Assembly: GCA_016218365.1 (NCBI GenBank)
Contig: JACREF010000009.1
Span: 155,727 to 219,726, forward strand
DNA: 64,000 nt
Source: Gammaproteobacteria bacterium
GTDB lineage: Bacteria > Pseudomonadota > Gammaproteobacteria > SZUA-140
Direction of reading: 5' to 3'
Positions 1,386 to 63,934 of the stretch are shown piece by piece. Under the pieces are notes generated by a model. That model was not told the DNA's origin, made no database searches, and saw only the letters and a list, made by a program, of their open reading frames with translations. The translations under genes were made by a program, and so were the position numbers. How positions within the stretch are numbered: the stretch's first letter is position 1; the number at the start of each line of letters is the position of its first letter.

Positions 1386-2957
1386 TCAGTGCCGGAAATG
1401 CCGCATGCTGGTGAATACCATTGCGATACCGTGTTCATCGGCGGCAGCGATGACCTCAGCATCACGCATCGAGCCACCGGGCTGGATCACGGCGGTGATG
1501 CCCGCTTCGGCGGCGCTGTCCAGTCCGTCGCGGAACGGGAAGAAGGCGTCGGAGGCCATGACAGAGCCGGCGACCTGCAGGCCGGCATCGGCGGCCTTGA
1601 TCGCGGCGATCCGTGCGCTGTAGACCCGGCTCATCTGTCCGGCACCGATGCCGATGGTCATGCCATGCTTGCCGTAGACGATGGCGTTGGACTTGACGTA
1701 TTTGGCCACCTTCCAGGTAAACAACAAGTCGTCCAGCTCCTGATCGCTGGGCCGGCGTTGGGTAACAAGCCTGAGCGCACTCCTTTCAACCATGCCATGA
1801 TCCTGATCCTGCACCAGCAGTCCACCGGTGACGCGGCGGTAATCGAGGCTGGCCGGATAGCTGCCGTGCCAGGGTTCGCAGACCAGCATCCTGACATTGG
1901 CCTTTTGCGCCAGCAATGGCAGCGCGTCATCATTGATGCCGGGGGCGATGATGACCTCGACAAACTGCTGTGTGAGGATTGCCTGGCAGGTTATGGCGTC
2001 GAGCGGACGGTTGAAGGCGATGATGCCACCAAAGGCCGAGGTCGGATCGGTGGTGTAGGCGCGGTTGTAGGCCTGCAGCAGATCACTGCCCAGTGCGACA
2101 CCGCACGGATTGGCGTGCTTGACGATGACGCAGGCCGGCTGATCGGCAAATACCTTGACGCACTCCAGTGCGGTGTCGGCATCGGCGATGTTGTTGAAGG
2201 ATAATTCCTTGCCCTGGATCTGGCGGGAGCGGGCTACACTGGGTTGATGGTCGCGTGGATCGGTGTAGAACGCGGCCCGCTGATGCGGATTCTCGCCATA
2301 GCGCAGGTCCTGGGCCTTGACGAAATGAAGGTTGCAGGTGCGCGGGAAGGCGTCGGGCGTGTCATGGCCGCTGGTCAATCGTCCGAGATAATTGGCGATG
2401 GCGCCGTCGTATTGTGCGGTATGTTCGAAGGCCTTGACCGCCAGCGAGAAACGCAAGGCAGCGCTGACGGCGCCGTGATGGTTCGTCATGTCAGCGATGA
2501 CGGCCTGGTAATCCTGATGATCAACGACGATGGTGACATGGGCATGGTTCTTCGCCGCAGCGCGGACCATCGTCGGCCCGCCGATATCGATGTTCTCTAT
2601 GGCGGTCGGCAGGTCACAGCCCGGCCGGGTCACCGTCTGCTCGAACGGATATAGGTTGACGACCACCAGATCGATGGTGGCTATGCCGTTTTTTGTCATC
2701 ACCATATCATCGATGCCGCGCCGGCCGAGGATGCCGCCATGAATCTTCGGGTGCAGCGTCTTGACGCGGCCATCCATCATCTCCGGAAAGCCGGTGTAGT
2801 CGGCAACCTCGATGACCGGCAGGCCATGGTCTGCCAGCAGTTTCGCCGTGCCGCCGGTAGACAATAATTCGACGCCCAGCTCATGCAGACGGCGGGCAAA
2901 GGCAACCGCCCCGGTCTTGTCAGAGAGACTGATCAGGGCGCGTTTGATCGGGGACAT
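1386..2957 (-). CDS. purH: Bifunctional AICAR formyltransferase/IMP cyclohydrolase
   Basis: Catalyses the last two steps of purine synthesis in the cytoplasm: formyl transfer to AICAR, then closure to IMP. The 523 residues are full length for the family. The N-terminal cyclohydrolase domain (MGS-like, about 1-150) shows [19 protein letters not shown] and [14 protein letters not shown]. The C-terminal transformylase domain (about 190-523) shows [31 protein letters not shown] and SDAFFPFRD. The ATG start is 55 bp downstream of fis on the same strand, so it probably ends the dusB-fis-purH transcription unit. No anomalies seen. Confidence 0.97.
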
Positions 2958-3011
2958 GCGGTATCCTGTGACGGGCAGATCCTGATCGGCCGGAAACTCT
3001 CTGGCCGGTGA

Positions 3012-3302
3012 TCAGGTGTTGAGGTCGTACTTTTCGAGTTTTTTGCGCAGCGTGGCCCGGTTCAGGCCCAGCATCCTGGCCGCCTTGCTCTGGTTGCCGC
3101 GGGTGTAGGTCATGACATGACGCAGCAGCGGCGCCTCGACCTCCTGCAGCACCATCTCATAGAGCTCAGTGGGCTGCTGGCCTTGCAGGTCCATGAAAAA
3201 CAGCTGCAGCGCGGTGTCCACGCAGGTGGCAACCGGCTTGCTGCGACGTTCACTGATGATCTCTTCAGTCTGGATCAGCGCAGTATTATTCTGTGTATTC
3301 AT
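3012..3302 (-). CDS. fis: DNA-binding protein Fis
   Basis: Nucleoid-associated DNA-bending protein that regulates growth-phase genes and site-specific recombination. The 96 residues match the size of enterobacterial Fis (98). The C-terminal helix-turn-helix is clear: [26 protein letters not shown]. The first ATG overlaps the dusB stop by 4 bp (ATGA), the classical gammaproteobacterial dusB-fis coupling. Confidence 0.96.
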
Positions 3303-4285
3303 GCGGCGAGTTCCGTCTGTTCGATGAGTTGATCAAAGTAGGCCCTGATTTGAACGAGCTGTTGCTCGGCATTTTCTACATTGTTGATGGTGTCGCGGAA
3401 TACCGCGCCCCCTCGTTGGCCCTTGCTGTACCATGAGATGTGTTTGCGCGCCATCCGTACGCCTGTGTATTCGCCGTAGAAATCGTACAAATGTCCGACA
3501 TGCTCCAGCATGATATCGCGTATTATCGCTATCTGAGGCTCGGGTAGCAACTGTCCGGTCTGCAGATAATGACTGATATTATTGAAGATCCACGGCCGCC
3601 CTTGCGCCGCCCGCCCGATCATCACGGCATCCGCGCCGGTATACTCAAGCACGTAGCGGGCCTTGCGCGCTGAATCGATATCACCGTTGGCGATCACCGG
3701 TATCGCAACACTCGCCTTGATATCCCGGATAGTATCGTATTCTGCTGTCCCATGGTAGGCGCAGGCGCGGGTCCGGCCGTGGACCGCCAAGGCCTGAATG
3801 CCGGCCTGCTCGGCGATGCGGGCGATCGTGACCCCGTTGCGGTTCTGGGCGTCCCAGCCGGTACGTATTTTTAACGTTACCGGGATATCCACGGCCCGAA
3901 CGACGCCCTCGAGTATCCTTCCCACCAGCACCTGGTCCTTCAGCAATGCCGAACCGGCCATGACATTGCAGACCTTTTTGGCCGGGCAACCCATGTTGAT
4001 GTCGATGATCTGGGCGCCGTGGTCGGCATTGTGGCGTGCCGCATCGGCCATCAGGGCCGGGTCGGCGCCGGCGATCTGCACCGAACGGGGCTCGATTTCA
4101 CCGTCATGATTGGCTCGGCGCAAGGTTTTCTGGCTGCCGCGCAACAGTGAGTTGCAGGTGACCATCTCGGAGACGGCCATGCCGGCCCCCAAGCGCTTGC
4201 ATAACTGGCGGAACGGGCGGTCGGTGACGCCGGCCATCGGCGCCAGGATCAGGTTGTTGCTGAGCGTGTAGGGTCCTATTTTCAT
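3299..4285 (-). CDS. dusB: tRNA-dihydrouridine synthase B
   Basis: FMN-dependent enzyme that reduces specific uridines in the tRNA D-loop. The 328 residues are full length. [12 protein letters not shown] near the N-terminus, [21 protein letters not shown] around the catalytic cysteine, [15 protein letters not shown] and PVIANGDI are diagnostic of the Dus TIM barrel. The coding end overlaps the fis start by 4 bp. The 137-bp gap upstream, to the DUF3426 gene, is AT-rich and probably holds the dusB-fis promoter. I could not place boxes with confidence. Confidence 0.96.
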
Positions 4286-7003: not shown

Positions 7004-9313
7004 TTATTGCGAATCGCCGTCCTTTTCAAACGGCGCCTTGTAACCGCATCCTTCCTGAGGGCAGACCAGCTCGCTGCCGCTGCGTTTGGTGACCTTGACG
7101 GTCAGGATCGGCCAGTTACATTGCGGACATTGCTGCGCGACCGGTTCGTTCCAGGTCGCGTATTCACAATCGGGGTAGGTGGAGCAGGAATAGAAGACCT
7201 TGCCACGGCGCGATTTGCGCTGCAGCATCGTGCCCTTGTTGCAGGTCGGGCAGGTGATCTTGGTGTCCTGGGGTTTTGCCAGCGGCTCGATGTGGCGGCA
7301 CTCCGGGTAGTTGCTGCAGCCAATGAACTTGCCATAGCGGCCATGACGGATGAGCAGCTGCCCCTGACACTCTGGACAGGTGCGGTCGGCAATGGCCTCT
7401 TCCTGTTCCTTGGAGTCGCCCTCCTCATTCAGACTGCGGGTGTAATCACATTCCGGGAAACCGGTGCAGCCGATGAAGCGGCCGCGGCGCCCGAGCCGGA
7501 TCGATAAGGGTTTGCCGCATTTGGGGCAGGCCTCATCAAGCGCCTCCTGGGTCACATCCTTGCGTTGGACCGAGTGCTCCTTGTCATCAACCAGCTGTTT
7601 GAAGGGTTGCCAGAATGCCTTTAACAACGGCACCCAGTCCTGCTCGCCGCGCGATACGGCATCCAGCTCATCCTCGAGATGGGCGGTGAAGTCGTAATCG
7701 ACATACTGGGTGAAGTGTTCGGTCAGGAACTTGTTGACGATGCGCCCGACATCGGTCGGGCGGAAGCGTTTCTTGTCCAGTTCGACGTATTCCCGCGCCT
7801 GCAGTGTCGCGATGATCGAGGCATAGGTCGACGGGCGGCCGATGCCGTGTTCCTCAAGGGCACGGATCAGGCTGGCCTCGCTGTAACGCGGCGGCGGCTC
7901 GGTGAAATGCTGCTCGGGGACGATGTGCTGCAATGCAATGGCTTCACCCTCCTCCATCAGCGGCAGGATGCGTTCACGTTCTTCATCCTCCTCTGCCACA
8001 TGGGCGGCATCATCGACGTCTTCCTGGTAGACGGTCATGAAGCCGGGATGGACGATGGTCGAGCCGGTGGCGCGGAACGTATTGCCATCACCTGCTGTCA
8101 GGTCAATGCTGACGGTGTCGATGGTGGCATGAATCATCTGGCAGGCGATGGCGCGCTTCCAGATCAGGTTGTAGAGCTTGTACTGATCCGCGGCCAGGTG
8201 TTGCTTGATATCGTCCGGGTGGATCTCCGCCGAGGTCGGGCGGATGGCCTCATGGGCCTCCTGGGCATTTTTTGCCCGGGTTTTGTAATGGCGCGGCTCA
8301 TCCGGCAGATTATCCTTGCCGTAACGTTCGCTGATATGCCGGCGCAGGTCATCCAGTGCCTCCTGGGCCAGGTTGACCGAATCGGTACGCATGTAGGTGA
8401 TCAGGCCCACCGCGCCATCACCGATGTCGATCCCTTCATACAACTGTTGTGCGGCGCGCATGGTGCGTTGGGCCGAGAACCCCAGCTTGCGGGCGGCCTC
8501 CTGCTGTAATGTCGAGGTGATGAACGGTGGCGCAGGATTGCGCTTGCGTTGTTTCTTTTCGATCTTTTGTACCGTCAGTTTTCCCTGCGCAGCCTGGCGC
8601 AGCGCGGCCTCTGCCGCCTTGGCCTCGGTCGCGGTCGTCACGCTGAACTGAGACAGCTTCTCGCCTTTCAGGTGGGTCAGCCGGGCCGCAAACTCGCTGC
8701 CATCCTTGAGCAGCTTGGCTGAGATGGTCCAGTATTCGCGCGGCTTGAAGGCCTCGATCTCCAGTTCGCGCTCCACAATCATCCGCAGCGCCGGGCTTTG
8801 TACCCGGCCGGCAGACAGGCCGCGGCGGATCTTTTTCCACAGCAGCGGCGACAGGTTGAAGCCGACCAGATAATCAAGGGCGCGCCGCGCCTGTTGCGCA
8901 TTGACCAGGTCCATCGACAGCTCCCGGGGGTGCTCAATGGCCTCCTTGATCGCGCGCTTGGTGATTTCGTTGAAGACCACACGATGCGTGGTCTTGCCAT
9001 CCAGCAGCCCGCGTTCCTTCAGGATCTCGAACAGGTGCCAGGAGATGGCCTCGCCCTCGCGGTCCAAGTCGGTGGCCAGATACAGCTCATCGGCCTTATG
9101 CATCGCCTTGGCCAAGGCTTCAATATGCTTGCTGTTCTTGTCGATGATCTGGTAGTTCATCGCAAACTCATGCTCGGTATCGACGGCGCCTTCCTTCGGG
9201 ATCAGGTCGCGCACATGTCCGTACGAGGCCAAGACCTGGAAACCACGGCCCAGGTATTTCTTGATGGTCTTGGCCTTGGCCGGCGATTCAACGATGACGA
9301 GATGGGTGGTCAT
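7004..9313 (-). CDS. topA: DNA topoisomerase I
   Basis: Type IA topoisomerase that relaxes negative supercoils. 769 residues. The TOPRIM domain at the N-terminus begins LVIVESPAKAKTI and contains TDLDREGEAISWH. SAGRVQSPALRMIVERE and the active-site region GLITYMRTDS (Tyr nucleophile) follow. The C-terminus carries four zinc-ribbon modules: CPKCGKPL...CTGFPEC, CPECQGQL...CSNYPEC, CPTCNKG...CSTYPDC and CPQCNWP...CPQEGCG. It is followed divergently by the small barrel protein and preceded by smg-dprA on the same strand. Confidence 0.97.
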   Translation of the reverse strand: MTTHLVIVESPAKAKTIKKYLGRGFQVLASYGHVRDLIPKEGAVDTEHEFAMNYQIIDKNSKHIEALAKAMHKADELYLATDLDREGEAISWHLFEILKERGLLDGKTTHRVVFNEITKRAIKEAIEHPRELSMDLVNAQQARRALDYLVGFNLSPLLWKKIRRGLSAGRVQSPALRMIVERELEIEAFKPREYWTISAKLLKDGSEFAARLTHLKGEKLSQFSVTTATEAKAAEAALRQAAQGKLTVQKIEKKQRKRNPAPPFITSTLQQEAARKLGFSAQRTMRAAQQLYEGIDIGDGAVGLITYMRTDSVNLAQEALDDLRRHISERYGKDNLPDEPRHYKTRAKNAQEAHEAIRPTSAEIHPDDIKQHLAADQYKLYNLIWKRAIACQMIHATIDTVSIDLTAGDGNTFRATGSTIVHPGFMTVYQEDVDDAAHVAEEDEERERILPLMEEGEAIALQHIVPEQHFTEPPPRYSEASLIRALEEHGIGRPSTYASIIATLQAREYVELDKKRFRPTDVGRIVNKFLTEHFTQYVDYDFTAHLEDELDAVSRGEQDWVPLLKAFWQPFKQLVDDKEHSVQRKDVTQEALDEACPKCGKPLSIRLGRRGRFIGCTGFPECDYTRSLNEEGDSKEQEEAIADRTCPECQGQLLIRHGRYGKFIGCSNYPECRHIEPLAKPQDTKITCPTCNKGTMLQRKSRRGKVFYSCSTYPDCEYATWNEPVAQQCPQCNWPILTVKVTKRSGSELVCPQEGCGYKAPFEKDGDSQ

Positions 9314-51634: not shown

Positions 51635-53071
51635 ATGGAATGGCAAGCCGTCATCGGTCTGGAGATCCACGCCCAGCTCGCGACCCGCAGCAAGATCTTC
51701 TCCGGCGCCGCCACCGCCTATGGCGCGGCGCCCAACACCCAGGCCTGCGCGGTCGACCTCGGTCTGCCCGGTGTGTTGCCGGTGCTGAATGGCGAGGCGG
51801 TGCGGATGGCGGTCAAGTTCGGCCTGGCGATCGATGCGCAGATCACGCCGCGCTCGGTGTTTGCGCGCAAGAATTATTTTTATCCCGATCTGCCCAAGGG
51901 CTACCAGATCAGTCAATACGAGCTGCCGATCGTCGCCCACGGCAGTATGGAGATCGAGCTCGAGGATGGGACGACGAAGACGATCGGCATCGTCCGTGCC
52001 CACCTTGAAGAGGACGCCGGTAAATCCTTGCACGAGGATTTTCACGGCCTGACCGGTATCGACCTGAACCGTGCCGGCACACCGCTGATCGAGATCGTGT
52101 CAGGGCCGGAGATGCACAGCGCCAAAGAGGCGGTGGCTTATATGAAGAAGATCCATGCGCTGGTGCGTTATCTGGATATCTGCGATGGCAATATGCAGGA
52201 GGGCTCGTTCCGTTGTGACGCCAATGTGTCGGTGCGGCCGCTGGGGCAGGAAAAGCTCGGCACCCGCGCCGAGATCAAGAACCTCAATTCCTTCCGTTTC
52301 ATCGAGCGCGCGATCAATCACGAGATTGCGCGCCAGATCGAATTAATAGAAGGCGGCGGCAAGGTGGTGCAGGAGACCCGGCTGTATGATGCCGAACGTG
52401 ACGAGACCCGCTCGATGCGCAGCAAGGAAGAGGCCTTCGATTACCGCTATTTTCCCGATCCTGACCTGTTGCCGGTCGAGCTCGATGATAAATATATAGA
52501 GTGGGTGCGCAAGTCGTTGCCGGAGCTGCCGGTCGCCAAGCGCCAGCGTTTCATCGATCAATATGGCCTGACGTCACGCGATGCAACGATCCTGACCGCG
52601 AGCCGCGAGCTGGCAGACTATTTTGAGCGCGTCGCCAAGGCGCCGGGCAGCGACGCGAAACTGGCCGCCAACTGGGTCAGCGGCGAGTTATTGGGCGCCT
52701 TGAACCGCGAAGCGCGCGAGCTCGACCAGTCACCGGTCACGGCGACAATGCTCGGTGGCCTGATCGCCCGCATCGTTGACAACACGATCTCCGGCAAGAT
52801 CGCCAAGGAGGTCTTCGCCGCGATGTGGGATGGTGAGGGCGATTGCGATGCAATTATTAATGCGCGTGGCCTGAAGCAGATCACCGACAGCGGTTCGATC
52901 GAGGCCCTCATCGACGGCATCCTGGCCAAGAATCCGCAGCAGCTGGCCGACTACCGTGCCGGCAAGGACAAGCTGTTCGGCTTCTTCGTCGGCCAGGTCA
53001 TGAAGGCGAGCAAGGGACAGGCTAATCCGGCCCAGCTCAACGACTTGCTGAAGAAGAAGCTGGATTCCTGA
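51635..53071 (+). CDS. gatB: Asp/Glu-tRNA amidotransferase subunit B
   Basis: 478 residues from ATG 51635 (AAGG upstream), full length. [68 protein letters not shown] and a C-terminal tRNA-binding YqeY-like tail ([30 protein letters not shown]). A second copy of the last 78 bp lies at 61325-61402. Confidence 0.98.
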
Positions 53072-53073
53072 TC
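52996..53073 (+). repeat. Left copy of the 78-bp gatB 3'-end duplication
   Basis: Direct repeat with 61325-61402: 73 of 78 positions are identical by eye, from GGTCATGAAGG to TGATC past the stop codon. The left copy is the 3' end of the intact gatB. The sequences upstream and downstream of the two copies differ. Confidence 0.9.
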
Positions 53074-53211
53074 CGTCGCTGGCGGTAGGTGTTTGATCAG
53101 GTTGCCACCGGTGAGGCACTCGGTGCCGATGAGCGGAATGTGTTCAGAATGCTTTGATTTTTTGAAAAACATACCAATGTTCGTGATCTTAATAACGCTC
53201 AGGAGATTCTG

Positions 53212-53490
53212 ATGACAAATGCTGAAATTATCAATAATCTGAATTCTAGAAGAGGCGAGATCTCTAATGCATCTCAAGTGACTTTTTTTGAATGCACTCA
53301 TCGTAAACAAGACGGTGGAGATCACCAAGTTATCGTGGAAATTCACGATCACGGCAATCAAGTATCGCTAGATGCTCGTTATAGTGTTTTTGCCAGAGAT
53401 GCGGATGATCCCAGAATATGCGTATCTGGAAACGACCAGCCTCATATTGAGGCTGCACTTGCAGTGGTTAATTGGAGAGCTCTTGGCTAA
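53212..53490 (+). CDS. Small hypothetical protein
   Basis: 92 residues, not recognised. GGAG lies 8 bases before the ATG. The sequence is polar, with a possible beta-alpha layout (ITNASQVTFFECTHRK-like, VIVEIHDHGNQVSLDARYSVFARD, DDPRICVSGNDQPHIEAALAVVNW). AT-richer than the flanking gatB gene. It lies between the gatB duplication and the restriction-like operon, so belongs to the inserted segment. Confidence 0.6.
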   Translation: MTNAEIINNLNSRRGEISNASQVTFFECTHRKQDGGDHQVIVEIHDHGNQVSLDARYSVFARDADDPRICVSGNDQPHIEAALAVVNWRALG

Positions 53491-53695
53491 CTTCATGCGG
53501 CTTGCTTTTGAGCCTGCGTTGCGCAAACCCATCAATCACATATCTCCAGCGTCAGCTCATGCATGCGGCCGGGTCACGACGCGTCGGTACCGACTTGGCA
53601 GGTCTGTCGGTCAGGCGATAAGCTGTATGCCTATACCGTTTCGCAAGGACGCAGATCATGGCTACGGCGGCAAGGAATGCCGGCCCGGATAGGGC

Positions 53696-53785
53696 GCTGC
53701 CCGTTATGAGCGCCAACGGCCCGAACAAACGCTGCTTTACCGGATTATCGAGCAGCACTGCCCGCTGTTCGTTACCCAAATGGCC
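53696..53785 (+). pseudogene. IS91-family transposase relic
   Basis: One frame reads AARYERQRPEQTLLYRIIEQHC and continues PLFVTQMALW, which matches the N-terminus of IS91-type transposases (PEQTLLYRIVEQH). Only about 30 codons are left; after them the frame loses similarity. No start codon of its own is in place and a TAG stands just before it in frame. Confidence 0.6.
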
Positions 53786-53928
53786 TTGTGGAAGCGGCGG
53801 GGGAGCACTTGGCCTGACAGCTGGGATGGGCCGGAAAGTCGAGGTGGAGAGGGCGGGTGGATTACCGGCGATGGCGGCAGAATTCTGCGCGATTTCGTGG
53901 TCACCATGAGGGGCGCATGGCTGCCCGC

Positions 53929-53992
53929 TGCCCGTGACTACCCGTGGACTTCGACTTGACCTGACGAGGTCTCACGGGCAACCATTTACAAT
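53929..53992 (+). promoter_or_regulatory. Inverted repeat and -10 box upstream of the defence operon
   Basis: TGCCCGTGA (53929-53937) and TCACGGGCA (53972-53980) form a 9-bp inverted repeat; TACAAT (53987-53992) lies 6 bases past the second arm. No good -35 at 17 bp (TTGACC at 53956-53961 is 25 bp away). Could be an operator with a regulated promoter, or a relic terminator next to a promoter. Confidence 0.4.
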
Positions 53993-54087
53993 GACCCCCT
54001 GCAGTGCCACGTCAGTCACAGAGCAACGGACGGATACGAGCGGGAAAAAATCACACAGGCAAGATGCCCCATGAGTGCAGTAGAAAT

Positions 54088-56949
54088 ATGAATGCAGTAG
54101 AAATCGAAGAAGCCATATCGGACCTGGCCCTTCAGCCCTTCGATGCGGCGGAGTTCCCATTTGCGTTCCTGGCCGCTTTCGGCAATAAGGACACGGCACT
54201 CAAGCGCCTGCGTACCGGCAACAACAATGCTTCGGATGTGCCGGGTGGTGTGCTCCAGCGCAACAACATCCATATCGCCGTATGCGCAGCTGGCACTGTA
54301 GGCGAAATCCTCAAGGCGTTACGCGCCAGCCCAGCCACTACAAAAGCCAAGGCCAAGTTCATCCTCGCCACCGACGGGCAGACTATGGAGGCCGAGGAGC
54401 TGACCAGTGGCGAAACCATCGCCTGCACCTACCTGGACTTCCCCAACCATTTCGGCTTCTTCCTGCCGCTGGCGGGTATCTCCACCATCAAGGAGATCAA
54501 GGACAACCCCGTCGACGTGCGCGCCACCGGGCGGCTGAACAAGCTGTACGTCGAGCTGCTGCGCGAGAACCCGGACTGGGCCAAGGACGAACGCCGCGCC
54601 GACATGAACCACTTCATGGCGCGGCTGGTGTTTTGTTTCTTTGCCGAAGACACCGACATCTTCAACGGCGAGGGCCTGTTCACCCACACCATCGAGCAGA
54701 TGAGCGAGCGCGACGGCAGCAACACCCACGAGGTGCTGCAAGCCATCTTCCGCGCCATGAACATCAAGGTGGCCGAGCGCGCCACTCAAAGCCCCACTCC
54801 CCTCGCGGGAGAGGGGTTGGGGAGAGGGGGCGTTAGCGCCCAGCCCCGTTTGCCGAACTGGGCGAACGGTTTCCCCTATGTGAATGGCGGCCTGTTCTCC
54901 GGCAGCACTGACGTGCCGCGCTTCACCCGTATGGCGCGCACCTATCTGATTCACGCAGGCAACCTCAACTGGAAAGAGATCAACCCCGACATCTTCGGCA
55001 GCATGATCCAGGCCGTGGCCGATGACGAAGAGCGCGGCGCATTGGGCATGCACTACACCAGCGTGCCCAACATCCTTAAGGTGTTGAACCCCTTGTTCCT
55101 GGATGACCTGCGCGCGCAGTTGAATGAGGCGGGCGATAACAAAATCAAGCTGCTGAACCTGCGCAAACGCATGGCGCGCATCCGCGTGTTTGACCCGGCC
55201 TGCGGCTCCGGCAACTTCCTCGTCATCGCCTACAAACAGATGCGCGAGATCGAGGCGGAAATAAACCGCCGCCGGGGAGAACTGCATCTAGGCAGTGAGA
55301 TTCCGCTGACTAATTTCCGTGGCATCGAGCTGCGCGATTTTCCGGCGGAGATTGCGCGCCTTGCGCTCATCATTGCCGAGTTCCAGTGCGACGTGCTGTA
55401 TCGCGGGCAGAAGGATGCGCTGGCAGAGTTTCTGCCACTGGATGCGCAAAACTGGATCATCAACGACAATGCCCTTCGGTTGGACTGGTTGAACCTGATG
55501 GATGCTCATCGCATGGGCGTGAAGGTGGTCGGTGATGACTTATTCGGTACTTCACTCGATCAGACGGGAATCGATTTCAAGAATGAAGGCGGAGAGACGT
55601 ATATCTGCGGCAATCCGCCGTACAAAGGTCGGAATAAGCAAAGTGAATTTGAGAAAGACGACACATCCTTCGTATTCTCAACCTATCCAGGTTCTTTCGC
55701 TTCGTTAGATTATGTCGCCAACTGGGTGATTAAGGCGGCTCATTTTTGTAAAGCGACCAATGGTGCTGCGGGACTTGTCGCTACAAATTCAATTTGCCAA
55801 GGTGAGCAGGTTGCTTTGTTGTGGCCCCTCGTTTTCGACTTGGGGATGCGCATTTCATTTGCCCATGAATCCTTTAAATGGTCGAATTTGGCAAGCAACA
55901 AGGCTGGCGTAACTGTCGTAATTGTCGGCATCTCAGGTGGAAAAGCTGGCCCCGCATTGCTTTTTTCTGAAAACGAATCCCGACAAGTGGATGTCATTGG
56001 CCCTTATTTGGTGCCAAACTCCAATGTCGTCGTTTCCGCTAGAAGTGCGCCGGTTTCTGACATCGGAATGATGTACCTAGGCAATATGGCCAAGGATGGA
56101 GGGAATCTCCTTTTTACCAAAGGCGAAGCTCGTAGTCTTATTGCGGACAAGGGTGTTGGTGCGTCCTTGATTCGTGAGTTTTTCGGTTCAGAAGAGTTGA
56201 TCCACTCAAAGCCAAGGGCCTGCCTTTGGATAGAAGATGAACAATTGGAGGCTGCAAAACAGAATGCGGCCATAGGCTCGATCTTGGATCGAGTTAGGGC
56301 TTTCCGTGCAGCTAGTGACGCGTCATCCACACGTTCGCACGCTGCAACGCCACATCGTTTCGTTCAGATGTCCGCGAAGAATGGTGAACGCGCAATTATT
56401 GTTCCGCGCGTTTCATCGGAAAATAGGCCATATCTTCCAGTAGATTACTTTCAAGCTGGACCAATTATTGGTGATAAATGCTATGCCCTTTACGATGAGC
56501 CGCTTTGGAACTTGGCGCTTATTGCGTCCAAGATGCACATTGTCTGGATTGGCACTGTTTGTTCGCGCCTCAGAACTGATTTTTCATACGGAAATAAGCT
56601 CGGCTGGAACACCTTCCCTGTGCCGCTGCTCACCGAGCAAAACAAAGCCGACCTGACCGCCTGCGCCGAGGCCATTCTGCTGGCGCGCGAAGCGCATTTC
56701 CCCGCTACCATCGCCGACCTGTACGACCCGGACACCATGCCGGAGAACCTGCGCCACGCCCACGAGCGCAACGACGAAGTGCTGGAGCGTATCTACATCG
56801 GCCGCCGCTTCAAGAACGATACCGAGCGGCTGGAAAAACTGTTTGAGCTTTATACCAAGATGACGGCGGCGGGCAAACGCCCCTCTCCCGAACCCTCTCC
56901 CCGCAAGCGGGGCGAGGGGGTCGTTACGAACAAGGGAGAAAAAGCATGA
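54088..56949 (+). CDS. MmeI-like N6-adenine DNA methyltransferase
   Basis: 953 residues from ATG 54088; earlier in-frame GTG 54004 and ATG 54064 are less convincing. A helical domain (MNHFMARLVFCFFAEDTDIF, about 173-192), LGMHYTS (319-325), SAM motif I FDPACGSGNFL (368-378) and catalytic NPPY (509-512) place it with MmeI/type IIG-like enzymes. Unlike MmeI I see no PD-(D/E)XK nuclease at the N-terminus; nucleases are encoded separately downstream. Two palindromic repeats are inserted in frame, and the target-recognition region (about 55.5-56.6 kb) is AT-richer than the rest. Overlaps the next gene by 4 bp. Confidence 0.88.
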   Translation: MNAVEIEEAISDLALQPFDAAEFPFAFLAAFGNKDTALKRLRTGNNNASDVPGGVLQRNNIHIAVCAAGTVGEILKALRASPATTKAKAKFILATDGQTMEAEELTSGETIACTYLDFPNHFGFFLPLAGISTIKEIKDNPVDVRATGRLNKLYVELLRENPDWAKDERRADMNHFMARLVFCFFAEDTDIFNGEGLFTHTIEQMSERDGSNTHEVLQAIFRAMNIKVAERATQSPTPLAGEGLGRGGVSAQPRLPNWANGFPYVNGGLFSGSTDVPRFTRMARTYLIHAGNLNWKEINPDIFGSMIQAVADDEERGALGMHYTSVPNILKVLNPLFLDDLRAQLNEAGDNKIKLLNLRKRMARIRVFDPACGSGNFLVIAYKQMREIEAEINRRRGELHLGSEIPLTNFRGIELRDFPAEIARLALIIAEFQCDVLYRGQKDALAEFLPLDAQNWIINDNALRLDWLNLMDAHRMGVKVVGDDLFGTSLDQTGIDFKNEGGETYICGNPPYKGRNKQSEFEKDDTSFVFSTYPGSFASLDYVANWVIKAAHFCKATNGAAGLVATNSICQGEQVALLWPLVFDLGMRISFAHESFKWSNLASNKAGVTVVIVGISGGKAGPALLFSENESRQVDVIGPYLVPNSNVVVSARSAPVSDIGMMYLGNMAKDGGNLLFTKGEARSLIADKGVGASLIREFFGSEELIHSKPRACLWIEDEQLEAAKQNAAIGSILDRVRAFRAASDASSTRSHAATPHRFVQMSAKNGERAIIVPRVSSENRPYLPVDYFQAGPIIGDKCYALYDEPLWNLALIASKMHIVWIGTVCSRLRTDFSYGNKLGWNTFPVPLLTEQNKADLTACAEAILLAREAHFPATIADLYDPDTMPENLRHAHERNDEVLERIYIGRRFKNDTERLEKLFELYTKMTAAGKRPSPEPSPRKRGEGVVTNKGEKA
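54791..54830. repeat. Palindromic GC-rich repeat inserted in frame (copy 1)
   Basis: CCCCTC (54799-54804) pairs with GAGGGG (54811-54816) around GCGGGA, followed by TTGGGGAGAGGGGG. It encodes SPTPLAGEGLGRGG, a low-complexity insertion in the methyltransferase. It belongs to the dispersed CCCTCTCCC-type repeats common in proteobacterial genomes. Confidence 0.7.
56893..56918. repeat. Palindromic GC-rich repeat inserted in frame (copy 2)
   Basis: CCCTCTCCCCGC and GCGGGGCGAGGG flank AA, a 12-bp stem with one mismatched base per side, near the 3' end of the methyltransferase gene. It encodes the tail SPEPSPRKRGEG. Same family as the copy at 54791. Confidence 0.7.
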
Positions 56950-58007
56950 GCGACAAGCCTATTAGCCTGACCTCACCACCGGAGGGTTATGCCGACTGGT
57001 TGGCCGATCTCAAAGGCCGTATCCACACCGCCCAGCAGCGTGCCACGCTGGCGGTCAACCGCGAGCTGGTGCTGCTGTACTGGCAGATCGGGCGCGACAT
57101 TCTGGCGCGGCAGGCCGAGCAGGGCTGGGGCGCGAAGGTGATCGAGCGGCTGGCGCATGATTTGCGCACCGCCTTTTCCGAGATGAAGGGGTTTTCGCCC
57201 CGCAACCTCAAGTACATGCGGGCCTTTGCCGAGGCCTGGCCGGATGCCGAATTTGTGCAAGAGGTGCTTGCACAATTGCCCTGGTATCACCAACTGGCGC
57301 TGCTGGACAAATTGCCCGACCCCGAAACCCGCCGCTGGTATGCGGCCAAAGCCATCGAGCACAACTGGTCGCGTAACATTCTGGTGATGCAGATCGAAAC
57401 CAGGTTGCTGGAGCGTAGCGGCACGGCGGTGACCAACTTCGAGGCTCGCCTGCCCGGGCCGCAGTCCGATCTGGCCCGCGAGTCGCTGAAAGACCCTTAT
57501 CGTTTCGACTTTCTGGGCCTCACCGACGAGGCGCAGGAGCGTGAGATCGAGCACGCCTTGGTGAAGCACGTCACTGAGTTCCTGCTGGAACTGGGCGCGG
57601 GCTTTGCGTTTGTCGGGCGGCAGGTGCTGCTGGACGTGGGTGGCGACGAGTTTTTCATCGATCTGTTGTTCTACCACATCAAGCTGCGCTGCTATGTCGT
57701 GATCGAACTCAAGGGTGGCAAGTTCAAGCCCGAGCATCTGGGGCAGCTAGGGTTTTATCTGACCGCCGTGGATCGCCAAATCAAAAGCGAGCATGACAAC
57801 CCAACCATTGGCCTCTTGCTCTGCAAGAGCAAAAACAAGGTGGTGGCCGAATACGCTTTGAGCGATAAGAGTCAGCCTATGGGTATTGCCGAATACAAAC
57901 TGCTCGAATCCATGCCCGCCGAGTTGCAAACCAGCTTGCCCAGTATTGAACAGATTGAGCGCGAACTGGCAGGCAGCGACATACCCACGGAGGACGATTC
58001 ACAGTGA
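56946..58007 (+). CDS. DUF1016/YhcG-family PD-(D/E)XK nuclease
   Basis: 353 residues. The N-terminal DUF1016_N domain (about 14-160) contains AVNRELVLLYWQIGRDIL, FSPRNLKYMRAF, LPWYHQLALLDKL and ARWYAAKAIEHNWSRN-like sequence. The C-terminal nuclease domain has Asp239 (FFIDLLFYH) and Glu254-x-Lys256 (VVIELKGGKFKPEHLGQLGFYL), the expected PD-(D/E)XK triad. Relatives are DNA nucleases linked to restriction modules. Four-base overlaps on both sides show translational coupling with the methyltransferase and helicase. Confidence 0.9.
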   Translation: MSDKPISLTSPPEGYADWLADLKGRIHTAQQRATLAVNRELVLLYWQIGRDILARQAEQGWGAKVIERLAHDLRTAFSEMKGFSPRNLKYMRAFAEAWPDAEFVQEVLAQLPWYHQLALLDKLPDPETRRWYAAKAIEHNWSRNILVMQIETRLLERSGTAVTNFEARLPGPQSDLARESLKDPYRFDFLGLTDEAQEREIEHALVKHVTEFLLELGAGFAFVGRQVLLDVGGDEFFIDLLFYHIKLRCYVVIELKGGKFKPEHLGQLGFYLTAVDRQIKSEHDNPTIGLLLCKSKNKVVAEYALSDKSQPMGIAEYKLLESMPAELQTSLPSIEQIERELAGSDIPTEDDSQ

Positions 58008-60124
58008 CCAACCCCACCAATGCCTACACCGTGCCGTCGGTGTCCATCACCACGGCGCGCACTGGCGCCTCCAGCAAGGCCAACGCGCTGGGGATGCGCG
58101 CCATGCAGGAGCGTGCCTATGCCAAGCGCGGCGAGCAGTACCTGCTGATCAAGTCACCACCGGCATCAGGAAAGTCGCGCGCGCTGATGTTCATCGCGCT
58201 GGACAAGCTCAATAACCAGGGCTTGCAGCAGGCCATCATTGTGGTGCCGGAGCGGTCCATTGGCAGCAGCTTCGCCGATGAGCCTTTAAGCCAGTTCGGC
58301 TTCTATTGGGATTGGCAGGTGGCCCCGCAATGGAACCTGTGCAATGCGCCGGGCGTGGACGAGCCGCGCGTGGCCAAATCCAAGGTGGACGCGGTGCGCA
58401 AGTTCCTGGATAGCGCCGACCAGACGCTGGTCTGCACCCATGCCACCTTCCGCTTTGCGGTGGAAGAACTGGGCATCGCAGCGTTCGACAACCGCCTGAT
58501 TGCCATCGACGAGTTCCATCACGTCTCCAGCAGCCCCGACAACAAGCTTGGCAACCAGTTGGGCGCGTTCATCGCGCGTGACAAGGTACATCTGGTGGCC
58601 ATGACCGGCTCTTATTTCCGTGGCGACAGCGAGGCGGTGCTGGCCCCAGCGGATGAGGCCAGATTTGAGACGGTCACTTACACCTACTACGAGCAGCTCA
58701 ATGGCTACCAATGGCTCAAGTCGCTGGACATCGGCTATTTCTTCTACACAGGCCCTTACGTTGATGCCGTCACCAAGGTGTTGGACCCGGCGCTGAAAAC
58801 CATCGTTCATATTCCCAATGTGAATGCCCGCGAAAGTCTCAAAGACAAGGAGCGCGAGGTCAACGAGATCATGCACGGTCTGGGCGAATGGAAAGGCGTT
58901 GATCCGGCCACCGGCTTCCATCTGGTGCAGGCCGGTGATGGCCGTATCCTGAAAGTGGCGGACTTGGTGGACGACAGCGACCTGGCCATGCGTTCCCGCG
59001 TGCTGGCCGCGCTGAAAGACCCGGCGCAGAAAAATAACCGTGACCATGTGGACGTCATCATCGCGCTGGGCATGGCGAAGGAAGGTTTCGACTGGATATG
59101 GTGCGAACACGCGCTGACCATTGGCTACCGCAGCAGCCTGACCGAAATCGTGCAGATCATTGGCCGCGCCACCCGTGATGCCGACGGCAAGGAACGGGCG
59201 CGCTTCACCAACCTGATCGCCGAGCCTACGGCTGAACAGGCTGCTGTGGCCGAGGCGGTGAACGACATGCTCAAGGCCATTTCCGCCAGCCTGCTGATGG
59301 AACAGGTGCTGGCCCCGCGCTACGAGTTCACGCCAAGAAACACCGGCCCATTGGGCGGCTTCGATTACGGTGAGGAAGGCTACAAGGACGGCGGCCACAA
59401 CATCGGGGTGAACAAGGACACCGGCCAGATTCATGTGGAGATCAACGGGCTGACGACACCGCAAAGCCCGGAGGCTACGCGCATCTGCAAGGAAGATTTG
59501 AACGAAGTCGTCACCAGTTTCTTGCAGGACAAAACCGTGTTGGAGCGTGGTCTGTTCGACAAGGAAAACACGCTGCCCGAGGAGCTGACTCAGTTGCGCA
59601 TGGGCAAGATCGTGCGCGAGCGTTACCCGGAATTGAGCGATACTGACCAGGAGGCCATTCGACAACACGCGATTGCCGCTATGAACATTACGCAGCAAGC
59701 CAAGTTGGCGTTGGCACAGGCCGATGCGAATGGTGGTGGTACGGGCGACGGCACGATGCAAGGCAATACGGCGTTGCTGGACGGGGTGCGCAAATTTGTC
59801 AATGTGCGCGAGCTGGACATTGACCTGATCGACCGCATCAACCCCTTCGATGCCGCCTATGCGGTGCTGGCGAAAGCGATGGATGAGAAATCGCTGCGCC
59901 AGGTGCAGGCCAGCATTGCCGCCAAGAAGGTGAGCATCCCCGAAGATGAAGCCCGCGAGCTGGCAAAGCGCGCCTTGCAGTTCAAGAACGAGCGTGGCCG
60001 CCTGCCGGACATCAACTCCGCCGACGCATGGGAAAAGCGCATGGCCGAAGGCGTGGCTGCGCTGGCGCGCTACCGCGCACAAGCGAAGGCGGCACAGGCG
60101 CAAGGAGAGTCCGGCAATGGCTGA
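58004..60124 (+). CDS. SF2 (DEAD/DEAH-like) helicase
   Basis: 706 residues from GTG 58004, which overlaps the previous stop (GTGA). Motif I PPASGKS (52-58), motif II DEFH (169-172), motif III MTGSY (200-204) and motif VI QIIGRATR (384-391) are all present, giving two RecA-like lobes in about 40-420. The C-terminal 280 residues are helical and have no motif I know. A translocase or helicase of a restriction system is the natural reading. 8-bp overlap with the GIY-YIG gene. Confidence 0.9.
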   Translation: MTNPTNAYTVPSVSITTARTGASSKANALGMRAMQERAYAKRGEQYLLIKSPPASGKSRALMFIALDKLNNQGLQQAIIVVPERSIGSSFADEPLSQFGFYWDWQVAPQWNLCNAPGVDEPRVAKSKVDAVRKFLDSADQTLVCTHATFRFAVEELGIAAFDNRLIAIDEFHHVSSSPDNKLGNQLGAFIARDKVHLVAMTGSYFRGDSEAVLAPADEARFETVTYTYYEQLNGYQWLKSLDIGYFFYTGPYVDAVTKVLDPALKTIVHIPNVNARESLKDKEREVNEIMHGLGEWKGVDPATGFHLVQAGDGRILKVADLVDDSDLAMRSRVLAALKDPAQKNNRDHVDVIIALGMAKEGFDWIWCEHALTIGYRSSLTEIVQIIGRATRDADGKERARFTNLIAEPTAEQAAVAEAVNDMLKAISASLLMEQVLAPRYEFTPRNTGPLGGFDYGEEGYKDGGHNIGVNKDTGQIHVEINGLTTPQSPEATRICKEDLNEVVTSFLQDKTVLERGLFDKENTLPEELTQLRMGKIVRERYPELSDTDQEAIRQHAIAAMNITQQAKLALAQADANGGGTGDGTMQGNTALLDGVRKFVNVRELDIDLIDRINPFDAAYAVLAKAMDEKSLRQVQASIAAKKVSIPEDEARELAKRALQFKNERGRLPDINSADAWEKRMAEGVAALARYRAQAKAAQAQGESGNG

Positions 60125-61271
60125 GATGGACGATGACGAACTGCTGGACGCGCTGGGGGTAGAAGTCACTCCACTCAAGGCCGCCAGCCGAACCCCGGGC
60201 GAGGAGCGCATCATCGCGGGCTTTGAGGACATCCTGCGCTTCCATCAAGCGCAGGGTCGCGCCCCGCTGCATGGCGAAGGCCGTGATATCTTCGAGCGCC
60301 TGTATGCCGTGCGCCTGGATCAGCTACGCAAGTTGCCGGAAGCGCAAACCCTGCTGTCCGGGGCCGCAGCGGCTCAGGCAGATGTGAGTGAGTTGGACGA
60401 AGATGCCCTGCTGGCCCAACTAGGAATTGGTGATGAACCTGCCGATCAAAGCGACATCACCGTGCTGCGCCATGTACGTTCCAGCGTTGAAAAGCGTGCG
60501 GCGGAGGAAGTCGCCGACCGTACGCCGTGTGCGGATTTTGACAGGTTCCAACCGCTGTTTGAGCAGGTGGAGCGGGAGCTGAAGGCCGGCGTGCGCATAA
60601 CGCTGCGCTTCGGACGCGATACCAGTATTGCCAGCGGGAACTACTTCATACTCGGCGGGCAGCTTGCGTATGTTGCCGAAGTGGGTGAAACCATCAAAGC
60701 TGCGTACGGAAGAAGCGATGCCCGCCTACGCGTGATCTATGCCAATGGCACGGAAAGCAATTTGCTGCGCCGCTCTCTGGAACGGGCGCTCTACAAGGAC
60801 GAGACAGGCCGCCGCCTGACCGACCCGGACATGGGGCCGCTGTTTGGCAATGCGCCAGAACCAGACGACATTGAAACCGGAACCATCTATGTGCTGCGCA
60901 GTCTGTCCAGCCATCCATTCATTGCCGAGCATCGCGAGCTGATCCACAAGATCGGTGTGACCGGCGGCAAGGTGGAGGCCCGCATCGCAGGCGCGGAAAA
61001 AGATGCCACCTATCTGTTGGCCGACGTGGAGGTGGTCGCCACCTACAAACTCCACAACCTGAACCGCACCAGACTGGAAAACATCTTCCACCGCCTGTTC
61101 GGTGCAGCGCAGCTCGACTTGACCATCGAAGACCGCTTCGGGCGTCCGGTGAAGCCGAGGGAATGGTTCCTGGTGCCGCTCCATGTGATTGACGAAGCGG
61201 TTCAGCGCATACGGGATGGCTCGATTACCGAAGTAGTCTATGACCCGAAGACGGCTCTGTTGATAGGTTGA
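60117..61271 (+). CDS. GIY-YIG nuclease (T5orf172-like)
   Basis: 384 residues from ATG 60117, with GGAG upstream. The N-terminal 150 residues are helical and acidic (EMDDDELLDALGVEV and a second DEDALLAQLGIG copy). A GIY-YIG domain sits at about 255-350: IYVL (257-260), KIGVT (279-282 region), Arg289 and the catalytic Glu321 in RLENIFHRLF. Last gene of the four-gene operon; a second nuclease beside the DUF1016 protein. Confidence 0.85.
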   Translation: MAEMDDDELLDALGVEVTPLKAASRTPGEERIIAGFEDILRFHQAQGRAPLHGEGRDIFERLYAVRLDQLRKLPEAQTLLSGAAAAQADVSELDEDALLAQLGIGDEPADQSDITVLRHVRSSVEKRAAEEVADRTPCADFDRFQPLFEQVERELKAGVRITLRFGRDTSIASGNYFILGGQLAYVAEVGETIKAAYGRSDARLRVIYANGTESNLLRRSLERALYKDETGRRLTDPDMGPLFGNAPEPDDIETGTIYVLRSLSSHPFIAEHRELIHKIGVTGGKVEARIAGAEKDATYLLADVEVVATYKLHNLNRTRLENIFHRLFGAAQLDLTIEDRFGRPVKPREWFLVPLHVIDEAVQRIRDGSITEVVYDPKTALLIG

Positions 61272-61324
61272 GCATATGCAGGATTCTGTGGATTTGCACG
61301 GACAGCATTCGTATTCCAATGCTT

Positions 61325-61402
61325 GGTCATGAAGGCGAGCAAGGGCCAGGCCAATCCGGCCCAGCTCAACAAGCTGCTGAAGAAGAAGCTGGATTCCTGA
61401 TC
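61325..61402 (+). repeat. Right copy of the 78-bp gatB 3'-end duplication
   Basis: Encodes [22 protein letters not shown] and DS-stop, the same C-terminus as gatB except Asp to Lys. Five differences from 52996-53073, two of them silent. The preceding sequence (61272-61324) has no similarity to gatB, so this is a bare 3' tail, best read as the displaced end of a gatB gene at the far boundary of an inserted segment. Confidence 0.9.
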
Positions 61403-61469
61403 AGGCGGTGATTCGCTGTGGGGCAGGAATCAGGGATCTGTGTCCGGTTCTTCAGGGCTACTTATGTGG

Positions 61470-61542
61470 CTTTAACGTTCGCGTTAACCCCGCCGATGGT
61501 CGCGCAGCGACCCGAAGATCCGTGTTGAGCGTGTGGTTAGAC
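61470..61542 (-). other. attC-like integron recombination site 1
   Basis: 73 bp. Core sites CTTTAAC (61470-61476) and GTTAGAC (61536-61542) are near inverses. Inside them GCGTTAAC and GTTGAGCG form the second pair, and GGTCGC/GCGACC a central stem around GCA. This is the layout R''-L''-loop-L'-R' of attC sites. The toxin stop codon overlaps its right core, so it lies immediately downstream of the minus-strand cassette gene. Confidence 0.65.
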
Positions 61543-61875
61543 TCCGATAATTTCATTTAAACCATCAATGATGTGGGCCAGTTCTTTGGGATCAACGGAG
61601 CCAATTTTCTTGCCGATTCGCTCGGTTGATAAGGTGCGAATTTGACTAATTTTTACCCACGACTGCTTAGGCAGCTTTGCCTTTGACAGTTCGTGCGTCA
61701 ATGGAAAGTTAGCCCGTTGTTCTTGGCTTATAATTGCCATTGCAATAACAGTTCCTGATCGCTCATTGAATATGTCTTGGCTCAGGATGAGCACTGGACG
61801 CTGCCCTGACTGCTCACGACCCACCGTAGGATTTAAATCAGCCCAGCGAACTTCACCTCTCAGTATTTTGGCCAT
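61537..61875 (-). CDS. MazF/PemK-family toxin
   Basis: 112 residues. [31 protein letters not shown] and [11 protein letters not shown], then [16 protein letters not shown], are the MazF/PemK fold signature including the conserved Arg and Ser/Thr. It should be a ribosome-independent mRNA interferase. Its start lies inside the antitoxin gene (16-bp overlap). Cassette 1 of the array. Confidence 0.92.
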
Positions 61876-62102
61876 GCCGCCAACTCCTCAGACAGCCCCT
61901 CGTCTGCCATCGCTTTTTCAAAGGATGGATCAAGTTTCGCGCATTCTTCTGCCAAGCGGTTCCGCTCAAGACGCTCCAGCTTCTCTTGAACAGCGTCCTG
62001 AATTGCTCGACTTCGATTACTAAATACTTTGCGCCTCACCAGAGCATCTACTTTGGCGAGCATTCCTTCTTCAATTGTGATGGCAACTTTTATCTGGCTC
62101 AT
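61860..62102 (-). CDS. Ribbon-helix-helix antitoxin
   Basis: 80 residues from ATG 62102 (GGAGG 8 bases upstream); a longer in-frame start at 62135 is unlikely. N-terminal ribbon-helix-helix ([39 protein letters not shown]) for DNA binding and autoregulation, acidic C-terminal part to cover the toxin. MazE-like partner of the toxin gene that follows. Confidence 0.9.
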
Positions 62103-62165
62103 GACTGCATCCTCCAGGGTATGATGTTTAATCATACCTGTACTGTACCGCTATGGCAACCAGGG

Positions 62166-62231
62166 AGTCAACGTAGAGTTGAGGGGGCTGCGCGGCTCTT
62201 TGCGCAGCTCCCCTCGAACGCCGGGTTGGGC
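62166..62231 (-). other. attC-like integron recombination site 2
   Basis: 66 bp. Core-like AGTCAAC (62166-62172, one position off the RYYYAAC consensus) and GTTGGGC (62225-62231). Inner stem GAGGGGGCTGCGC with GCGCAGCTCCCCTC and one unpaired base. It resembles site 3 closely (CAACGTA-AGT..., CTGCGC/GCGCAG, GCCGGGTTGGGC). Confidence 0.68.
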
Positions 62232-63194: not shown

Positions 63195-63257
63195 GCCCAA
63201 CGTAAAAGTAAAGGACTGCGCGCTTTTGCGCAGTCCCGCTTGACTGCCGGGTTGGGC
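63195..63257 (-). other. attC-like integron recombination site 3
   Basis: 63 bp. GCCCAAC (63195-63201) and GTTGGGC (63251-63257) are exact inverses and match RYYYAAC/GTTRRRY. Inner stem GGACTGCGC with GCGCAGTCC. The stop codon of the right-hand cassette gene directly follows. The clearest of the three sites. Confidence 0.75.
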
Positions 63258-63855: not shown

Positions 63856-63934
63856 AGTATCCCCCGGTGTCAGGGTAGTTGTCGCGTTGCCGGGATGTAG
63901 TAAAGGATAGACTGGGGGCGGAAAGCAGTGAGAA

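Follow-up and report, generated by a model that had tools for sequence, protein, structure and literature searches.

gatB and the copies of its 3′ end

The window (the whole stretch of 64,000 nucleotides that was analysed) carries gatB, a restriction-like operon, integron-cassette-like genes and one end of an IS3-like element, with copies of the gatB 3′ end standing before and after the operon (Table 1). The DNA between copies 1 and 2 is referred to below as unit 1, and that between copy 2 and a third copy on another contig as unit 2. The gatB frame is open to its stop at 53071 and aligns over its full length with the genes of relatives; an intact target gene, one of the marks of a gene-restoring island, is present.

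Table 1. Position, strand and supporting evidence of the features at the gatB locus (window coordinates).
Feature	Position	Strand	Evidence
gatB, 478 aa, frame intact	51635..53071	+	ORF list; GatB of relatives 72-76% identical
gatB tail copy 1, end of the present gene	52996..53073	+	repeat search, BLAST, codon alignment
92-aa ORF, first gene of unit 1	53212..53490	+	no Pfam or NCBIfam match
MmeI-like (type IIG) methyltransferase	54088..56949	+	Pfam MmeI domains; PADLOC REase_MTase_IIG, 899 bits; MmeI 5hr4
YhcG/DUF1016 PDDEXK nuclease	56946..58007	+	PF06250, PF17761; PADLOC PDC-S02
DEAD-like helicase	58004..60124	+	PF00270 just below cut-off; plasmid proteins annotated DEAD/DEAH box helicase
GIY-YIG (T5orf172) protein	60117..61271	+	PF13455, PF10544
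gatB tail copy 2, putative displaced end and border of the two units	61325..61402	+	repeat search, BLAST
PemK/MazF-like toxin and RHH antitoxin genes	61537..62135	-	PF02452 above cut-off, PF01402 just below
attC-like site	62168..62231		81% match to 63195-63257; hairpin; full two-core pattern absent
Two cassette-like ORFs, 267 and 198 aa	62397..63854	-	no Pfam match
attC-like site, both core motifs	63195..63257		pattern and hairpin
Target duplication TAT (63858-63860) and left end of IS3-like element; contig ends	63858..64000

A repeat search of the window paired 52996-53081 with 61325-61410 (86 nt, 91% identity, 8329 nt from start to start), the repeat containing the last 24 codons of gatB, its stop and 2 bases common to all copies. 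The direct repeats 8.3 kb apart, with five differences, described in the first-pass annotation are thereby confirmed (5 in 75 nt). BLAST of copy 1 against its own genome (2.26 Mb, 33 contigs, 97% complete) returned copy 2 with E=4e-28, which rules out a chance repeat as the origin of the tails, and a third tail at C28:2820-2887 (87% over 68 nt), from which it follows that the event is larger than 8.3 kb. The window ends where contig C24 (219,726 bases) ends, and copy 3 was therefore invisible from it. With three tails, the 3′ end of the target gene is repeated at both borders, as in a gene-restoring island.

Copies 1 and 2 both lie in the gatB frame with the stop kept (peptide end [D/K]LLKKKLDS and stop) and differ by one residue (D/K), three of their five nucleotide differences being at third codon positions (P 0.21). 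The 61.3-kb copy is not part of an unrelated gene, a finding that had been named as a refutation of the island. Over 66 nt, copies 1 and 3 show 9 differences, 7 of them at third positions (P 0.008), and of 7 differences between copies 2 and 3, 5 fall there (P 0.045). This pattern suggests that copies 1 and 3 diverged while each ended a working gatB, and the excess between them fits islands that import tails from other hosts. All three tails carry ASKGQ, where relatives mostly have ATQGK or ASQGK; ASKGQ occurred in none of 45 fetched loci with pattern-recognised tails, the pattern having missed more than half of the loci. Since the signature is common to all three, the tails would derive from close kin.

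ARAGORN found no tRNA in the window, and a tRNA was set aside as the insertion target. Protein genes had been regarded as rare targets for such islands, a view at odds with the available text of the TIGER/Islander study, according to which 43.4% of its islands lie in coding sequences (PMC12424338).

Cargo of the two units and the contig join

Unit 1 is 8.25 kb long. Its first gene, the 92-aa ORF, has one other homologue (72%) in a search of 5.8 billion proteins. The methyltransferase shows the type IIG combination of methyltransferase and target-recognition domains (PF20473 and PF20466, far above cut-off); the N-terminal nuclease domain PF20464 also matches it, and the MmeI alignment starts only at residue 108 of 5hr4. 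Plasmid proteins of Polaromonas, Acidovorax and Pseudomonas share 86-88% identity with the helicase, homologues of which (E<=1e-30, up to 92% identical) were found in 10 of 274 genomes of the class, our own included. On the plasmids concerned (Polaromonas pE10SP1, Acidovorax p1-T1, Pseudomonas pG20) a GIY-YIG gene follows the helicase in all three, as here, and it is preceded by a methyltransferase gene in two and by a PDDEXK gene in one. Unlike the operon described here, these are plasmid-borne, and their DNA likeness ends ahead of copy 2. At six loci elsewhere (three plasmids and three genomes) the shared operon DNA stops at 61257-61269, that is, 56-68 bp before copy 2; the operon is therefore not itself tied to gatB, and likely travels on other vehicles too, given that close homologues sit on plasmids. 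The operon in relatives with no second tail had been named as grounds for abandoning the insertion, and in a sense such loci do exist, but the insertion stands on synteny (see below) and is not undone by them.

An IS91 relic proposed at about 53.5-54.0 kb was not borne out: four reading-frame pieces gave no Pfam match, and the only nucleotide similarity was 173 nt at 70% in two Acinetobacter plasmids, where no feature is named. A short stretch is in our view nevertheless reminiscent of the start of an IS91 transposase.

Behind copy 2, the attC-like calls were made from core pattern, similarity and hairpin, with no dedicated attC model. The combination of attC-like sites and cassette-like genes with no adjoining integrase resembles a CALIN, defined in the available text of PMC7923331 as a cluster of attC sites lacking an integron integrase; unlike a CALIN, the genome does have an integron integrase, on another contig (C29) and at a different chromosomal region. 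That region (G000:C29:1-8500) holds the integrase gene at 2852-3898, leftward cassettes and attC-like sites, next to chromosomal genes that we take to be rpoH and ftsX/ftsE/ftsY. An isolated attC-like site, 93% like window 63195-63257, lies at G000:C23:164145-164207, on a contig without the integrase.

The end of C24 resembles IS3-family (ISAs20-like) plasmid elements (72% over 130 nt). C28 and C29 both open with an identical 141-bp right end of this IS, and the same left end closes C11 and, reversed, opens C9, for which no right-hand partner was found among the contigs. IS3 elements produce target duplications of 3-4 bp, and the flanks match as TAT (or GTAT) between C24 and C28 and as CTT (or GCTT) between C11 and C29, the four other pairings agreeing at 0-1 nt. 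C24 is therefore likely continued through the IS into C28, an order on which the target duplications and synteny agree; a path from C24 into C29, with the integron integrase gene, was rejected because the target duplications disagree. The IS end at the start of C29 pairs with C11 by its duplication.

On C28, the rest of unit 2 consists of an ion-channel gene (PF07885) and a nucleotidyltransferase-like gene with its neighbour, this pair being MntA-like only by a match far below cut-off. An antitoxin-like gene (C28:2673-2804) is cut exactly at copy 3, and a related frame occurs at C12:5760-5876. The likely order of the whole is thus gatB, copy 1, restriction operon, copy 2, cassettes, IS, further genes, copy 3 and a JAB-domain gene.

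Insertion elements might themselves have built the region, the IS91-like and IS3-like elements carrying gatB tails as hitch-hiking fragments. An IS3-like end does close the contig and an IS91 relic had been suspected, but Pfam gave no IS91 match, neither type of IS would put such a tail at the 3′ end of the gene, and the IS3-like copy is flanked by a separate target duplication that lies apart from the tails, so that it arrived later and does not bound the units. We consider this origin highly unlikely.

Empty sites in relatives and a second duplication

Copy 3 on C28 directly abuts a convergent JAB-domain gene (PF14464), followed by genes presumed to be prmC, prfA and hemA. In three genomes of the same family (G008, G009 and G012) the JAB gene starts 96, 13 and 12 nt past the aligned gatB end, and in one of the same class (G041) 28 nt past it; these empty-site genomes belong to other genera of the family, or of the class. 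The empty site expected for a gene-restoring island is thus found in relatives, in other genera. The inserted cargo is absent from these gatB-JAB sites. Among the 18 family relatives with gatB, JAB lies within 100 nt in 3; the interval is 2.3 kb in G010 and 8.5 kb in G002, with no second gatB tail in either, and JAB was not seen in the sequence examined for the other 13. More widely, 78 loci had 300 nt or more of downstream sequence (flanks of up to 10 kb were fetched), and in 17 of them the flank held a convergent prmC; a convergent JAB was found in 5 of 28 further loci with about 1.5 kb of flank, 4 of these within 150 nt.

On the simplest reading of these comparisons, gatB and JAB would have adjoined ancestrally and copy 3 would be the old native gatB end, because gatB stands beside JAB in relatives and copy 3 touches JAB. 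The JAB-prmC-prfA-hemA operon is then likely the former native neighbour of gatB. If copy 3 is native, all DNA from gatB to copy 3 would be inserted, the cassettes after copy 2 included. On either side of the insert the GC content is 61-62%; inside, the stretch that follows copy 1 has 53%, the operon and the part of C28 preceding copy 3 have 58% each, and the cassettes have 49%.

The first-pass annotation had taken the DNA between copies 1 and 2 for an insertion at the gatB 3′ end, which the empty sites support, but had bounded the island at copy 2; the cassette array would also be inserted, giving at least two tandem units. It had expected relatives to show a single gatB end followed by the cassette array: the single end was found, although JAB and prmC follow it there. 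The native end, which had been sought among the two copies of the window, is by position copy 3, on the other contig.

The tail peptide was matched in 331 of 369 genomes of the class, with more than one match in two, our own (3) and G225 (2). The latter was not counted as a further case, both of its tails lying at contig ends with one gatB cut short. Of the contigs G225:C208 and C301, one has a gatB that stops about eight codons short, where foreign-looking sequence cuts it, and the other has the normal end; perhaps this is strain variation at the same gene end. In the family, 19 of 20 genomes were matched, more than once in our own and in G004, a member of another genus. Here 97 nt of the gatB end are repeated on one contig (93%, E=6.5e-38), 4.7 kb apart and 4.8 kb from start to start, the far copy carrying an internal stop. 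Between the tails lie genes for an RCC1-repeat protein and a TPR/GT41 glycosyltransferase and a third ORF with no Pfam match, cargo unrelated to that of our genome. G004 is a clean and independent second case of gatB-end duplication. Its near copy is closer to G008 (69/81 nt, against 62/81 for the far copy), and of 18 differences 9 fall on third codon positions (P 0.11). Beyond the far tail the contig continues for another 181 nt, in which JAB was not seen. Both tails are trailed by similar CTTAGG-type and GGAATCCGG-type intergenic repeats (G004 L165:3943-4060 and 8744-8924), and for this reason the duplicated block may extend beyond gatB.

That the repeats are an artefact of assembly or binning is barely credible. 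In its favour stand the division of the genome into 33 contigs, the repeat at the end of each of the two contigs concerned and the contig ends that explain the two G225 tails. Against it, differences of 9-13% show that the copies are no double assembly of a single locus, copies 1 and 2 share one contig, as do those of G004, and copy 3 is located where synteny predicts.

Exact tail patterns matched 0 viral contigs; wider patterns matched 1 and 5, with a GatB match in 3 of the 6, and no tail beside an integrase was found in the ORFs of viral contigs L184, L187 and L189 (extended as L190). A later pattern matched 14 viral contigs, of which L189 was inspected. The predicted prophage contig L190 (L190:613-4644, IMGVR_UViG_2913630200_000002) holds a whole gatB and then, after about 40 nt, an opposite-strand family A DNA polymerase gene (PF00476). 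This would be a prophage border at gatB in another setting; a second tail was not found on it. Viral proteins with a GatB_Yqey domain (PF02637) were seen in 3 of 3 tested (L191:7409-7951, L192:9596-10195, L199:9722-10174), and the tails of such phage proteins resemble gatB ends and can mislead searches for attachment sites. On plasmids the tail peptide gave 40 records, of which 30 were among the matches listed, and the one region inspected contains a whole gatB. Komagataeibacter phage phiKM1 was rejected as a gatB case, as its longer gatB stretch adjoins tRNA-Ser and an integrase; the available text of the phiKM1 paper does not contain 'gatB', and names tRNA-Ser as the target for the related phage phiAP1.

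Recombinases and the mode of insertion

The absence of an integrase inside the insertion, remarked on in the first-pass annotation, agrees with our searches: none was found among the Pfam matches of 10 reading frames across 53.2-63.9 kb, and neither PF00589 nor PF00239 matched the insert as assembled, in which the interior and copy number of the IS are unassembled. The integrase of a gene-restoring island is thus not seen in the assembled insert. In the whole genome PF00589 has three matches, none near the insert: the integron integrase (TIGR02249) and two others that we take from their neighbour genes to be XerC and XerD. On the gatB contigs of the 18 family relatives there was a single match, 73 kb off in G002. 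Contig C23 carries a pair of large serine recombinase genes, separated by about 8.7 kb (G000:C23:61400-73900), one of which overlaps and seems to interrupt a gene presumed to be comM/yifB-like. Large serine recombinases leave short cores, making them a poor fit as the agent, and the integron integrase, which acts at attC/attI, would not duplicate a gatB end.

Insertion in the final codons of a protein-coding gene is known from SGI1, for which the available text of PMC2297512 describes integration at the thdF 3′ end and possible tandem insertion. The likeness lies in the site (the last 18 bp for SGI1), in the gene end at both borders and in tandem stacking. SGI1, as far as that text goes, has its own integrase, tandem copies of one element and an 18-bp repeat, whereas here the target is gatB, the units are unlike each other, the repeat measures 66-97 bp and no integrase is seen. 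Many genomic islands restore the interrupted gene, according to the available text of PMC12884075. The arrangement at gatB has the shape of such an island, like SGI1 at thdF, but with no integrase seen. Literature searches naming gatB or its product showed no gatB attachment site among the matches listed; where the available text mentions gatB, it is as the source of a terminator, as a locus used for typing, as a gene of sugar transport or as an entry in a list.

Our reading, which we hold to be probable, is that two units between gatB and the JAB operon were inserted successively by site-specific recombination at the gatB 3′ end, each with a predicted replacement tail. Each unit would have been a circle with a gatB tail as its attachment site, and recombination with the chromosomal tail would leave gatB complete, with the old tail displaced to the far border of the unit. 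The cassette unit would have been the first to arrive, copy 3 being native and copy 2 the replacement that it brought, and the restriction unit would have followed with copy 1; the recombinase may have been a tyrosine integrase that has since been lost or that acts in trans. Successive insertion is argued for by the three tails, the gatB-JAB junction in relatives, the IS pairing, the G004 case and the lower GC content, and the third-position excess between copies 1 and 3 favours tails taken from working gatB genes. Several observations count against a site-specific island: no integrase is present in either insert (our own or that of G004) as assembled, the excess is not significant for copies 1 and 2 or for G004, the exact tail pattern occurs in no viral contig, and the empty sites come from other genera. 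Nor would a single integrase predict that the 5′ edge of the repeat varies, as it does, from about 66-68 nt (copy 3) to 76 (copy 2) and 97-123 (G004).

This variation keeps alive an entry by homology, in which foreign DNA that happened to have a gatB tail came in through a single crossover dependent on RecA, or was taken up by transformation and joined homologously at one end and illegitimately at the other, with no dedicated integrase, the duplication being a by-product of the homology. Both inserts lack an integrase, the genome's other tyrosine and serine recombinases offer no fit, and a lineage signature shared by the tails of one genome is what exchange between close kin would leave. But it asks much of chance homology that two tandem units in one genome and one more insert in a different genus should share a single gene end as their site, and it is left unexplained why the homology carried is always the last codons of gatB. 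On balance, we regard homologous entry as unlikely.

Site-specific insertion at gatB, extended to this gammaproteobacterial family, leads to a tentative proposal: the gatB 3′ end may be a recurrent landing site for small recombinase-less islands, each with a lineage-matched tail that would both target and mend the gene, stacking in tandem and moved by a trans helper integrase or by host recombination. The TIGER/Islander resource, as its available text describes it, demands an integrase gene, and the inserts found here would go unlisted; catalogues of that kind miss tandem gene-restoring inserts without an integrase. If the proposal is true, a borrowed gene tail would suffice to label cargo and direct its placement, and gatB, which serves tRNA amidation, would tolerate one insertion after another at its end because every newcomer repairs it. 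The arrangement shows a route by which a defence operon and integron cassettes become neighbours.
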